Shown one piece after another: positions 31,451-42,729 of a DNA stretch of 64,000 nucleotides. How positions within the stretch are numbered: the first letter of the stretch is position 1; every line of letters begins with the position of its first letter. A program made the position numbers and the translations under genes. The stretch spans positions 62,001 through 126,000 of the forward strand of contig WBUL01000012.1 in the NCBI GenBank assembly GCA_008933735.1, written 5' to 3'. Source of the stretch: Anaerolineae bacterium. Lineage in GTDB: Bacteria; Chloroflexota; Anaerolineae; Aggregatilineales; J027. The notes beneath the pieces are model-generated. The model saw only the letters and a list, made by a program, of their open reading frames with translations, had not been told where the DNA came from and searched no databases.

Positions 31451-32248
31451 ATGGCAGATAATATACTGTGGGCAAGCGTCTATGTGCCGCTTACGGACAA
31501 AAGCAAGATCACATCCGCACTGGAGAAACTTTACGAGGCGGAGGGATATACACCTTACGATCCCTTCCCCGGCGGCACAGGCACCCCCACCGGGATTACT
31601 GCCACCAGCCGCCTGTTTGTCGGGGCGGCGGAAAATGGCTGGACGCGGATCCTTGGTCACATCGAATCGCATATTTTGAACCGTCTAGCGGAAAGTCTGG
31701 GAGTTACTCTGCTTTCCATCTGGATTTCGGAAAATGAAAGTCGTGTAGAAGCCGTTGGCAGCCAAACCCTGATTGAATTCCTGAAAGATGGAAAAACGCC
31801 TGACGATTTAAATCGTGCTGAAAAAATCACACCGGTCAATACGGGTGATACGATGCAGGGTGAACTTGGCGATCTGGCGAAACAGTACGGTGTGAAGAGC
31901 AAACATGTTGAAAAACTATTCCAGAAAACCACGCGAGGCATCTTCGAGAAACTGGATAAACAGACAGAGGGTGAAGCCAGCAAAGCACAATCCGAGGCGA
32001 TGAACGTGCTCAAAGGGCAGTTTTCATGGGACAGTGCCCCGGCACAGCGTGTGCAGGCCGCTATGACGTGCCTGAACGTCCCCCAAAACTGGCATGAACC
32101 ATCGTTTAAGGACTTAGCGGCGGCATACCCTATCGCCAGACTGCTTGACCTCAACGAGGATGCGCTTTTATTGCCGGGGGATGAAGACCTGCTGGATAAA
32201 GTCAGCTTTCCCCTGGACTATACCCCCATTTATTATGCGAAACTATAG
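31451..32248 (+). CDS. Uncharacterised protein
   Basis: I do not recognise this 265-residue soluble protein. It starts with a compact domain (about 1-110, MADNILWASVYVPLTDKSKITSALEKLYEAEGYTPYDPFPGG) that has strand-like stretches. A charged helical part follows (about 115-190, with the helix-turn-helix-like LGDLAKQYGVKSKHVEKLFQKTTRGIFEKL), and then an acidic end. No catalytic motif is seen. It follows recD2 by nine bases with GGAAGA as binding site, so it is probably co-expressed. Its stop overlaps that of the convergent FHA gene by six bases. Confidence 0.7.
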   Translation: MADNILWASVYVPLTDKSKITSALEKLYEAEGYTPYDPFPGGTGTPTGITATSRLFVGAAENGWTRILGHIESHILNRLAESLGVTLLSIWISENESRVEAVGSQTLIEFLKDGKTPDDLNRAEKITPVNTGDTMQGELGDLAKQYGVKSKHVEKLFQKTTRGIFEKLDKQTEGEASKAQSEAMNVLKGQFSWDSAPAQRVQAAMTCLNVPQNWHEPSFKDLAAAYPIARLLDLNEDALLLPGDEDLLDKVSFPLDYTPIYYAKL

Positions 32249-33070: not shown

Positions 33071-35365
33071 ATGACGGTTCAACTGTGGCCCGATAAAGAA
33101 GCACAGCAGATTTTGAAATTTCACGGTGCAGACGCGGATAAAATGATCATCGTGGAAACAGGTTTTGGCCCATCTGGTAAGCCCCATTTTGGGACGTTCG
33201 GTGAGGTCGTGCGTACCAACTATGTCATGCTGGCTATGAATGAATTGGGGTACAAGACGAAACTGATCGCCTATTCTGATGATCTGGACGGTCTGCGGAA
33301 GATTCCTGAGGGATTCCCTGGCTGGCTCAAGGATTATATCGGGCATCCGGTATCACGAATTCCTGACCCATTTGAAGAATATGAATCCTTTTCTGCACGC
33401 ATGAATGCGCTGCTCGTCAAAATGCTGGACGAGCTCCAACTGGAATATGAACTGCGTATCTCATCGGTGTGTTATCCGGCGGGGACGTTCAATGAGCAGA
33501 TTAAGATGGTCATCCAGAATTATGAAGCCGTGCAGGACATTATTTTCCCCTACCTGCGGGACGAAACAAAAGAACATTGGTTTCCCTTTTTCCCGCTCTG
33601 TGAAAACTGCGGGAGTATCAGCCATACCCGAGTTACAGCGGTAGACAAAGAAAATCTGATTCTGGCCTACGTCTGTGACCGTGAATTTGGCGGCGTCATA
33701 GGCTGCGGACATACCGGGAAGGTACACGCACTGAACGGGAATGGGAAATTACAATGGAAAGTTGACTGGCCGGCACGCTGGCACGCCTTTGGGGTGCATT
33801 ATGAAATGTTTGGCAAAGACCTGATCGAATCGGCTGAGGTTGGGGACAGAATCGTGCAGCGCATCTTTAAGGGTAAACCTCCCGTCCACATGTTTTACGA
33901 GATGTTTTTGGACGACAAGGGCCGGAAAATCTCCAAATCTAAAGGCACCGGCATGACCGCAGAAGAATGGCAGCGCTATGGCACACACGATTCGCTGATG
34001 CTGTTGATGATGGACAAACCCCGCGAGGCGACCAAACTTTATCCAGGGATAATTCCCCGCTATGTGGATACCGCCATGAAAGCGGCAGATGCTTATTTCA
34101 GCGGAGATGAAAAGCAGGCCCGCGAGGCCCGAACGTATAAATTTATCCGTTTGGGGCGCATTCCACTTGAGCCGCCTGTCACGGTCGATTTTACAACCCT
34201 GGTGAATCTGGTAGGCAACGTTGGGTTGGAAAATCCGGTCATTGTGGAAGATTATTTGCGGCGATCCAGGCTGGTTGAAGGTAGCCTTAGTGACAACCAG
34301 CGCCGAGATTTGCACGACCTCATCCTCAAAGCCCGCCGCTACTATGATGAGCAGATGGTGCTGGAGCTGGCAGAACCGGAATTTGATGGTGAAGACGGCT
34401 TTTTACTGGGGCAGTTGGTCGCCAAACTGGAAGCCCAGGAATGGGAGGCGGACGCGCTGCACAACGAACTCTTCCAGATTGCCAAAAATCACAATGTAGA
34501 CCCGAAAAAGTTCTTTCGGGCGCTGTATTTTGCGCTGATCAAACAGGAGCGCGGCCCGCGTGGAGGCGCTTTCATCAAACTGCTGGGGCAGGAAAAAGCA
34601 ATCGAACTGATCCGCCAGCGTATCGCCGAGTCGGTCAGGCCTAAAGAACCGTTGCAAGAAGAAACAGTACCATCGGGTACGCTGCTCCCGGTGACGATTG
34701 CCGAAGAAGTTAAACAGCGCTACCCGGATATGGTCTTGGGCGCGGCGGTCATTGAAGGTGTGACCATGCAGGATGATCGTTCTGAGGATTTGGAGGGGGC
34801 GATTGCCAGCGCGACACAGTCCGTACAGGGAATCGATATTCAGGTGGCGATTTCGCAGGGCGCGATTGATGCTTATCGTCAGCTTTTCGCCACGTTTGGC
34901 GCGAACCCGAATGCCACCCCACCCAGCCCGCAGAATATTTTACGCATCGCTGTAAACGATAACCGCCTGCCGAATGTGAATAATGTCGTGGATGCCGTGA
35001 ATCTGACCGTGCTGGAAACAGGGCTTTCGGCTGCCGTATATGATATGCAGAACCTGGACTTACCCTTGACTCTACGATTTGCTCAAAAAGGTGACAAGCA
35101 TTTGCCGCTGGGAGGGCGCCAGGTCGAGTCGGTTGAGCCGGGTGAACTTGTTTACGCAGACGCCAGTGAGGTCATTTGCCGGGCGCTTAACCACCGTGAC
35201 TCGGATAAAACCAAAATCACAACGAAGACACAGACGGTTTTGTTAATTGTGGATGGCAGCCCCAGCATCTCAGCCGTCACGGTGCTGGAAACGCTGCAAC
35301 AGCAAGTACGGCGGATCATTCAGTATGCAGGGGGAACCGTCAAAGCGCAGGGGCTGCTGTTCTAG
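33071..35365 (+). CDS. lysK: Class I lysyl-tRNA synthetase fused to a B3/B4 domain
   Basis: LysK charges tRNA-Lys with the class I Rossmann fold found in archaea and scattered bacteria. The 764-residue protein has the HIGH-like GPSGKPHFGTF (33-43) and the KMSKS-like KISKSKG (about 286-292), and a helical anticodon-binding part to about 525. The last 220 residues are extra. They match the B3/B4 domain of PheRS beta: YRQLFATFGANP, SPQNILRIAVNDNRLPNVNNVVDAVNLTVLETG, AVYDMQNLDLPLTLRFAQKGDKHLPLGG and PGELVYADASEVICRALNHRDS. B3/B4 domains edit mischarged tRNA or bind tRNA, so an editing or tRNA-holding role is possible. SD AAGGAAAGG precedes the ATG. No second LysRS is in the window. Confidence 0.93.
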   Translation: MTVQLWPDKEAQQILKFHGADADKMIIVETGFGPSGKPHFGTFGEVVRTNYVMLAMNELGYKTKLIAYSDDLDGLRKIPEGFPGWLKDYIGHPVSRIPDPFEEYESFSARMNALLVKMLDELQLEYELRISSVCYPAGTFNEQIKMVIQNYEAVQDIIFPYLRDETKEHWFPFFPLCENCGSISHTRVTAVDKENLILAYVCDREFGGVIGCGHTGKVHALNGNGKLQWKVDWPARWHAFGVHYEMFGKDLIESAEVGDRIVQRIFKGKPPVHMFYEMFLDDKGRKISKSKGTGMTAEEWQRYGTHDSLMLLMMDKPREATKLYPGIIPRYVDTAMKAADAYFSGDEKQAREARTYKFIRLGRIPLEPPVTVDFTTLVNLVGNVGLENPVIVEDYLRRSRLVEGSLSDNQRRDLHDLILKARRYYDEQMVLELAEPEFDGEDGFLLGQLVAKLEAQEWEADALHNELFQIAKNHNVDPKKFFRALYFALIKQERGPRGGAFIKLLGQEKAIELIRQRIAESVRPKEPLQEETVPSGTLLPVTIAEEVKQRYPDMVLGAAVIEGVTMQDDRSEDLEGAIASATQSVQGIDIQVAISQGAIDAYRQLFATFGANPNATPPSPQNILRIAVNDNRLPNVNNVVDAVNLTVLETGLSAAVYDMQNLDLPLTLRFAQKGDKHLPLGGRQVESVEPGELVYADASEVICRALNHRDSDKTKITTKTQTVLLIVDGSPSISAVTVLETLQQQVRRIIQYAGGTVKAQGLLF

Positions 35366-41520: not shown

Positions 41521-42729
41521 ATGACACGCCGACTGTATTACGAGGATGCCTATATTACCCAATTTGAATCCAGCATCACCGAAAAATTTGTCACCGAAGG
41601 TCGTCCTGCCCTAAGTCTGGCATCGACCTGTTTTTATCCGACTGGCGGCGGTCAGCCCAACGATTTGGGAAGGCTGAATGGGATTCCGGTGCTGGATGTG
41701 CTGGCTGAGGGTGACAAGGTCTGGCACATCGTCGAAAGAATACCGGATGCAGACCTGGTAAGAGGCGAAATCGACTGGCCGCGGCGCTTTGACCTGATGC
41801 GCCAGCACACCGGCCAGCACATCTTAAGTCGCGCATTTGAGATTGTACTGGATGCCAACACAGTCGGGTTCCACCTTACAGATAACACACTAACGATTGA
41901 TCTTGATAAAGCTGATATTCCGTTGAGTGATCTTGACTCGGTTGAAGATCTGAGCAATCAGGTCATCGCGGAAAACCGAGTGGTGCGGGCCTGGTTTCCT
42001 TCTGCGGAAGAACTGGCCGGGCTAACGCTGCGGAAAGTGCCGGAAAAAGTCATGGACAAGGTACGGGTAGTACAAATCCAGGATTTTGATGTGTGTGCCT
42101 GTGGGGGGACTCATGTCCGTGCAGCGGGCGAGATCGGGCAAATCAAAATCATCCGGTTTGAAAAGCGGCGTGGGGGTACACGCTTAGAGTTCATGTGCGG
42201 CCAGCGCAGTCTGGAGGATTACCGTCAGAAAAATCACCTGCTGCTGCAACTCGCGGCGGATCTAACGGTTGGTTACTGGGAAGTCCCGGATGCTTTCAAG
42301 CGGTTGCAAGAGGACAACAAAACCCTGACCAGGGAGCTTCGGCAGGCAAAATCCCAGCTTCTTAAAATGGAAGCGGAGGCGAGGTGGCAGGCTGCCAGAG
42401 AATCCGGCGGTGAACGGATGGTCATTGCAGACCTGATGGACAATCGTGAGGTGGCGGAATTGCAGGGGATCGTGGGGCAGTTGATCCAGAAACCTAAAAC
42501 TATTGTACTGATGGCTGTTCCAGGGGAGAAAGCGCATGTCATTTTCGGTGCCTCAGAAGATGCCGGGTATGATGTGCGGCCGCTGCTTAAGGCAGCGCTG
42601 GAAACGCTGGGCACGGATCGTGGCGGGGGGCGCGAGACTCTGGCCCAGGGCGGAGGATTCCCCGCGACTCGTGAGCAGTTGGAAAGTGTTCTGGCTTACG
42701 CGAAAGCACGGGCCTTAAGAGGTGAATAA
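41521..42729 (+). CDS. Alanyl-tRNA editing protein (AlaX type with DHHA1 domain)
   Basis: AlaX proteins remove serine or glycine wrongly attached to tRNA-Ala. The 402-residue product has an N-terminal AlaRS-like domain (FYPTGGGQPNDLG). The editing site has HxxxH in RQHTGQHILS (about 98-107) and CxGTH in CACGGTH (about 198-204). A coiled linker (about 255-295) and a C-terminal DHHA1 domain (GGRETLAQGGGFPATREQLES) follow. This is the long AlaX form. AAGGACAGCAA precedes the ATG. It opens a packed run of genes through acpS. Confidence 0.92.
   Translation: MTRRLYYEDAYITQFESSITEKFVTEGRPALSLASTCFYPTGGGQPNDLGRLNGIPVLDVLAEGDKVWHIVERIPDADLVRGEIDWPRRFDLMRQHTGQHILSRAFEIVLDANTVGFHLTDNTLTIDLDKADIPLSDLDSVEDLSNQVIAENRVVRAWFPSAEELAGLTLRKVPEKVMDKVRVVQIQDFDVCACGGTHVRAAGEIGQIKIIRFEKRRGGTRLEFMCGQRSLEDYRQKNHLLLQLAADLTVGYWEVPDAFKRLQEDNKTLTRELRQAKSQLLKMEAEARWQAARESGGERMVIADLMDNREVAELQGIVGQLIQKPKTIVLMAVPGEKAHVIFGASEDAGYDVRPLLKAALETLGTDRGGGRETLAQGGGFPATREQLESVLAYAKARALRGE

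Follow-up and report, generated by a model that had tools for sequence, protein, structure and literature searches.

The fused gene and its surroundings

The 64-kb stretch of DNA analysed here (the window) belongs to a member of the Anaerolineae, and carries on its forward strand a gene of 764 codons which starts with ATG and has no internal stops. Its product begins as a class I lysyl-tRNA synthetase (LysRS) and ends in a B3/4 domain (Table 1). Comparison with Pfam identified tRNA-synt_1f (PF01921; E 2e-112, 376 bits against a cut-off of 27), Anticodon_2 (PF19269; E 2e-8) and B3_4 (PF03483; E 5e-24, 85 bits, gathering score 29.3), and with a profile of B3/4 proteins the homology extends from about residue 538 to the C-terminal end. 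The model TIGR00467 gave 260 bits, above its cut-off of 148, and NF001968 gave 444 bits, under its cut-off of 648. A preliminary description, made from the letters of this DNA, had read the gene as a class I LysRS with a C-terminal B3/B4 domain; these scores, obtained within one continuous frame, bear it out, the B3/B4 landmarks which it quoted are all present in the protein, and the PF03483 match is kept across related genomes. The HIGH-type motif reads HFGT and the KMSKS-type motif KISKS; these align with HVGS and KMSSS in the fusions of a second family described below; in the same alignment the linker has no evident similarity to the linkers of those proteins.

Table 1. Features of the fused gene in the window and of the aminotransferase genes which adjoin the fusions of the second family
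Feature	Details	Sequence	Position	Strand
Fused gene, class I LysRS + C-terminal B3/4 domain	764 aa	window	33071..35365	+
Class I LysRS catalytic core, PF01921	residues 5-358; HFGT and KISKS motifs	window	33083..34144	+
Anticodon-binding domain, PF19269	residues 419-516	window	34325..34618	+
Linker	about residues 517-537	window	34619..34681	+
B3/4 module	residues 538-764; PF03483 core residues 602-730	window	34682..35362	+
Pocket-type segment 1, NVVDAVNLTVLETGLSAAVYD	residues 638-658; includes the PheRS editing-His position (Ala655)	window	34982..35044	+
Pocket-type segment 2, ELVYADASEVICRALNHRDSDKTKIT	residues 692-717	window	35144..35221	+
Ornithine aminotransferase		L137	6345-7568	-
Ornithine aminotransferase		L185	3318-4544	+
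Ornithine aminotransferase		L186	5736-6251	-
Ornithine aminotransferase		L187	5871-7133	+

The purine-rich sequence AAGGAAAGG immediately 5' of the ATG is a plausible ribosome-binding site. No RNA regulator was found upstream of the LysRS gene, and no tRNA genes were found in the 64-kb window. Upstream, between the genes for a RecD2 helicase and an FHA protein, lies a 265-amino acid frame without a Pfam match (31451-32248, +). About 6 kb downstream of the fusion is a gene (41521-42729, +) for a protein with tRNA_SAD and DHHA1 domains, an AlaX-like candidate trans-editing protein; it is adjoined by a gene encoding a membrane region of the lysylphosphatidylglycerol synthase type (PF03706; 42765-43814, +).

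Type of B3/4 domain

A B3/B4 module is also the editing domain of the beta chain of phenylalanyl-tRNA synthetase (PheRS), and it was to this type that the domain had been likened in the preliminary description. The likeness stands as regards homology: profile-profile alignment of the fused B3/4 domains with PheT of the window and related genomes gave a probability of 95%, and both kinds share the PF03483 domain with its INNxVDxxN ... E ... YD/FD landmarks. It does not stand as regards type. In a search of the PDB with the C-terminal 236 residues the top two entries were 9mkl (E 4e-10) and 9f7e (E 4e-7), whereas PheRS beta chains were matched with E values of about 0.1 or worse. The PheRS-beta model TIGR00472 gave the fused protein 30-33 bits against a cut-off of 403, so that it has neither the architecture nor the score of PheT, and a separate PheT-sized frame with a B3/4 domain is present in the window genome. 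Unlike the PheRS module, the fused domain is without PF03483 profile positions 128-174 (the C-terminal part), matches the PheRS sequences weakly, and sits on a class I rather than a class II synthetase. It also lacks the editing histidine, Ala655 being aligned with the His of the PheT segment QPTHAFD in the profile-profile alignment. The domain and the full-length protein were modelled with AlphaFold from 2-3 input sequences, and the models, with a pLDDT of about 40, were used for Foldseek lookup only; the first two matches to the low-confidence model are described as CtdA, followed by PheRS.

By sequence, then, the nearest solved relatives of the window domain are canavanyl-tRNA(Arg) deacylases (CtdA) and not PheRS. 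CtdA is a free-standing protein, experimentally shown to be a deacylase, which strips canavanine off tRNA(Arg) and does not need ArgRS (PMC10018355). The fused domain resembles the proteins of 9f7e and 9mkl over its whole length, and the PheRS-type His is absent at the same place; CtdA-type proteins have Gly there. Since CtdA is active without this residue, its absence is no argument against activity in the fused domain. The latter differs from CtdA in being covalently joined to a class I LysRS and in forming a separate clade, outside that which holds the rhizobial B3/4 proteins. The CRRWNWRQ segment of CtdA is replaced by CRALNHRD or C(L/W)DFN(Y/H)RD in the fused domains (RRWNWRQ becoming RALNHRD or LDFNYRD), with Asp710 in place of Gln and Tyr602 in place of Trp. 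The substrate class is probably, as with CtdA (PMC10018355), that of basic amino acid analogues.

The positions conserved among the B3/4 proteins compared are all kept in the window protein (Phe609, Gly610, Asn644, Ala671, Gly691, Glu692, Asp697 and Arg709). A further set of residues (Tyr602, Glu649, Cys703, Asn707, Asp710, Lys715 and Arg748) is invariant in the fused type. Compared with the free-standing B3/4 proteins of the order, the fused domain has Tyr602 for Trp, Glu649 for Arg, Asp710 for Gln, Lys715 for Ala, Asp728 for Glu and Arg748 for Leu; Asn707 stands where these proteins have Cys, but is shared with CtdA. The pocket-type segments are among the best-conserved stretches of the domain: VNLTVLETG-SAAVYD and EVICRALNHRDSDKTKIT are nearly identical in the window protein and in its closest relative (G003, below), while the domain as a whole has 50-52% identity. 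Judged by homology with the PheRS site, these segments would line a pocket, and the residue pattern agrees with an active site which has been kept while its specificity changed.

Distribution

A full-length relative with 55% identity was found in an Anaerolineae MAG of the same family as the window (G003) by one pattern scan of 84,980 species genomes, a scan which detects close relatives only and was the sole search to reach beyond the phylum. Its two entries, L008 and L009, are the same contig and were counted once. This copy (L008, 5944-8300) lies on a contig of 2.2x coverage, and its frame is broken once, near the KMSKS motif in the LysRS part, either by a sequencing error or in reality. 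Its neighbours match those of the window, with an FHA protein upstream on the opposite strand and SpoVS and DnaA downstream. Between these two genomes the LysRS part is 67% identical and the B3/4 part 52%. Four further full-length fusions, at 31-34% identity, were recovered from 154 genomes of the order. They belong to a second family, f2, and to three of its genera (G473, G474, G482 and G483); all have intact frames of 788-811 codons, and each exceeds the cut-offs of PF01921, PF19269 and PF03483, the last with 84-91 bits across the window and f2 proteins.

The same architecture is therefore found in six genomes of two families (the window genome, G003 and the four of f2), and the open frame over about 230 B3/4 codons is kept in all six. 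The concern raised in the preliminary description, that the fusion might be an assembly join peculiar to one genome, does not apply, the window frame being continuous. Among the class I LysRS recovered from the class (396 genomes) and from the phylum (400 genomes) there were no more LysRS-B3/4 fusions; long frames (up to 1033 codons) around other class I LysRS of the phylum had no B3/4 match, and the query alignment ended there near residue 500-550. No fused relatives were found in viral contigs. The true range of the fusion may be wider than this phylum-centred sampling shows. Four other loci considered as fusions (G056/L011, G060/L012, G053/L036 and G017/L037) proved to be ordinary free-standing B3/4 genes enclosed in long open frames.

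LysRS complement of the fused genomes

None of the fused genomes contains a class II LysRS scoring over the TIGR00499 cut-off of 427.6 bits, their best scores (110-128 bits) coming from AspRS-sized frames; genomes of the same families without class I LysRS have a class II enzyme at 554-570 bits. Completeness is 99% for G473 and 98% for G483, and 81.5% for the window assembly (G000). The fusion is apparently the sole LysRS of its genomes, and as their apparently only source of Lys-tRNA(Lys) its synthetase activity would have to be intact. Free-standing B3/4 proteins exist beside the fused one in G003 (C267, L133), G473, G474, G482 and G483; none was found in the 81.5%-complete assembly of the window genome.

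The locus with and without the fusion

Within f2 the LysRS genes of G473 (fused) and G050 (unfused) occupy the same syntenic locus, at which a polyphosphate glucokinase gene overlaps the LysRS 3' end convergently and a gamma-glutamyltranspeptidase gene lies beyond. Since the plain LysRS outside f2 all lack the domain, the more economical explanation is that the fused genera gained it.

A gene for ornithine--oxo-acid aminotransferase lies directly upstream of the fusion, in the same direction, in all four f2 genomes. The G473 protein gave 502 bits with TIGR01885 (cut-off 378) and the other three are its close homologues. The aminotransferase stop is separated by 92-206 nt from the codons for YWAD, a motif at the LysRS start. 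The aminotransferase is absent from both unfused syntenic loci which could be judged (G050 and G481; a third is on a short contig), and in G483 the pair has remained intact though the next neighbours have moved. The two genes may not be co-transcribed, because a terminator-like hairpin lies between them in G474 (L187), with a similar sequence in the spacer of G473 (L137). No ornithine aminotransferase gene was found within the 64-kb window. Ornithine is the next shorter homologue of lysine, and the position of this gene next to every f2 fusion makes it the leading candidate for a substrate.

Two LysRS lineages and one B3/4 clade

The two halves of the protein have different relationships. The LysRS part of the window protein is 37-43% identical to plain LysRS from the families f15 and f48, but its identity with the f2 fusions is just 30%, while the LysRS parts of the latter are 63-70% identical to the plain LysRS of a genus (g36) of their own family. 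In a maximum-likelihood tree of LysRS the two fused groups fall in different clades, and their union in a single clade is rejected (p-AU 7.7e-6, with a log-likelihood 166 lower). The B3/4 domains of the six fusions, on the other hand, form one clade (100/99) when compared with 34 free-standing and two TyrRS-fused domains. This clade is retained (95/94) with outgroups from the Actinomycetota, Bacillota, Deinococcota, Pseudomonadota and Bacteroidota and one archaeon. Each of the two fused B3/4 groups, when placed without the other, joins the tree at roughly the same point, so that an artefact of long branches alone is less likely. No free-standing B3/4 closer to the fused type was found in 298 genomes of the class or in 72,556 plasmids.

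Read from these trees, with one B3/4 clade on two LysRS lineages, the LysRS type of B3/4 was either fused to class I LysRS on two or more occasions, from an unsampled free-standing source, or passed between LysRS genes. Both histories suggest that the pairing of LysRS with B3/4 has been selected for.

Proposed function

B3/4 proteins hydrolyse aminoacyl-tRNA esters, and the simplest expectation for a module joined to a synthetase is that it works on what the synthetase produces, which is why we propose tRNA(Lys) as the target. We think it somewhat probable that the C-terminal, CtdA-like domain is a deacylase which clears mischarged tRNA(Lys) of a lysine-like amino acid, that is, that it carries out post-transfer editing in cis. 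The class I LysRS part would charge tRNA(Lys) and would occasionally put a wrong amino acid on it. The 3' end of the bound tRNA would then swing into the B3/4 pocket, or the product would be bound again, and the ester would be hydrolysed there. The substrate would be a basic, lysine-like non-protein amino acid, with ornithine as the first candidate. From domain homology and context we infer hydrolysis, action on tRNA(Lys), transfer in cis and the substrate; hydrolysis is supported by the recruitment on two LysRS lineages, the conserved pocket-type segments and the aminotransferase adjoining all of the f2 fusions. That some lysine-like amino acid is edited seems to us an evenly balanced proposition, and ornithine in particular is a tentative choice. 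Similarly speculative is the fuller proposal of a dedicated B3/4 clade, confined to class I LysRS and recruited onto two of its lineages, which frees tRNA(Lys) of ornithine or some other diamino acid.

The need for such editing is not obvious, since class I LysRS is known for rejecting lysine analogues (PMC1475646) and, according to a passage in PMC8001834, does not charge ornithine. The domain is also dispensable for charging, as close relatives have an unfused class I LysRS.

It is possible, though we consider it unlikely, that the domain is instead a non-catalytic clamp which holds tRNA and raises the affinity or stability of the synthetase. Alanine at the position of the PheRS editing His, and the change of the RRWNWRQ segment found in active CtdA-type proteins, would agree with a loss of catalysis; but CtdA works without the His, the generic conserved B3/4 residues are all kept, and the pocket-type segments rank among the best conserved.

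The kinship with CtdA, as the nearest characterised relative, raises the question of whether the domain deacylates another tRNA, such as canavanyl-tRNA(Arg), and is attached to LysRS for expression or localisation only. The lack of a free-standing B3/4 in the incomplete window assembly would agree with such a role. We hold it to be distinctly improbable, in that the fused domains form a clade apart from the rhizobial CtdA-type proteins, the f2 genomes and G003 retain a separate free-standing B3/4, and the pairing with LysRS occurs on two LysRS lineages.

A view of the domain as a neutral passenger, or as a remnant in decay, would accord with its evolution, somewhat faster than that of the LysRS part as judged from the two genomes of the window family, and with LysRS functioning without it in sister genera. 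This reading has little probability in our estimate: the frame is open throughout the domain in all six genomes, the single break in G003 lying in the LysRS part, and the pocket-type segments are near-invariant. Lastly, an artefact of assembly or annotation, which the metagenome-type assemblies and the interrupted G003 frame might bring to mind, can be practically dismissed in view of the six genomes in two families, the retention of neighbouring genes (FHA, SpoVS and DnaA beside the window-family fusions; polyphosphate glucokinase and ornithine aminotransferase beside those of f2) and the long contigs, that of the G473 fusion being 2.7 Mb.

Comparison with other LysRS enzymes

The fused protein shares the catalytic core, anticodon domain and signature motifs of ordinary class I LysRS (LysRS1), and differs in that no other class I LysRS recovered in the phylum runs into B3/4. 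Passages in reviews describe no dedicated editing domain for LysRS1, and present editing by class II LysRS as cyclisation within the synthetic site, without a separate domain. Editing in cis by the fused domain would possibly serve the same purpose as this pre-transfer editing of ornithine, homocysteine and homoserine by the class II enzyme, namely to keep lysine-like amino acids out of proteins; here, in contrast, a separate domain of the hydrolase type is carried by an unrelated synthetase. No description of a LysRS-B3/4 fusion, or of any editing domain on a class I LysRS, was found in the open-access literature. Thus the parts are known and the combination appears to be new.

If the proposed function is correct, a post-transfer editing domain would for the first time be described from a LysRS, and that in organisms without the class II enzyme. 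The conservation of the fusion indicates that some lineages may need proofreading of tRNA(Lys) despite a class I active site which rejects analogues. The fusion would also offer a natural cis version of CtdA, with a testable question, namely which lysine-like amino acid is removed.

B3/4 domains fused to TyrRS

TyrRS, too, bears a B3/4 domain, at its N-terminus, in four genomes from three further families of the class: L124 (G102), L129 (G067), L178 (G244) and L181 (G112). These are single frames of 664-759 codons, and B3_4 together with tRNA-synt_1b was confirmed with Pfam in three of the four. Here a class I synthetase has gained the module a second time, separately from the LysRS fusions. 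Taken together, the LysRS and TyrRS fusions suggest that B3/4 is a portable editing module which class I synthetases have acquired on several occasions, beyond its occurrence in PheRS. Two of the genomes with TyrRS fusions, G102 and G067, also have an unfused class I LysRS.
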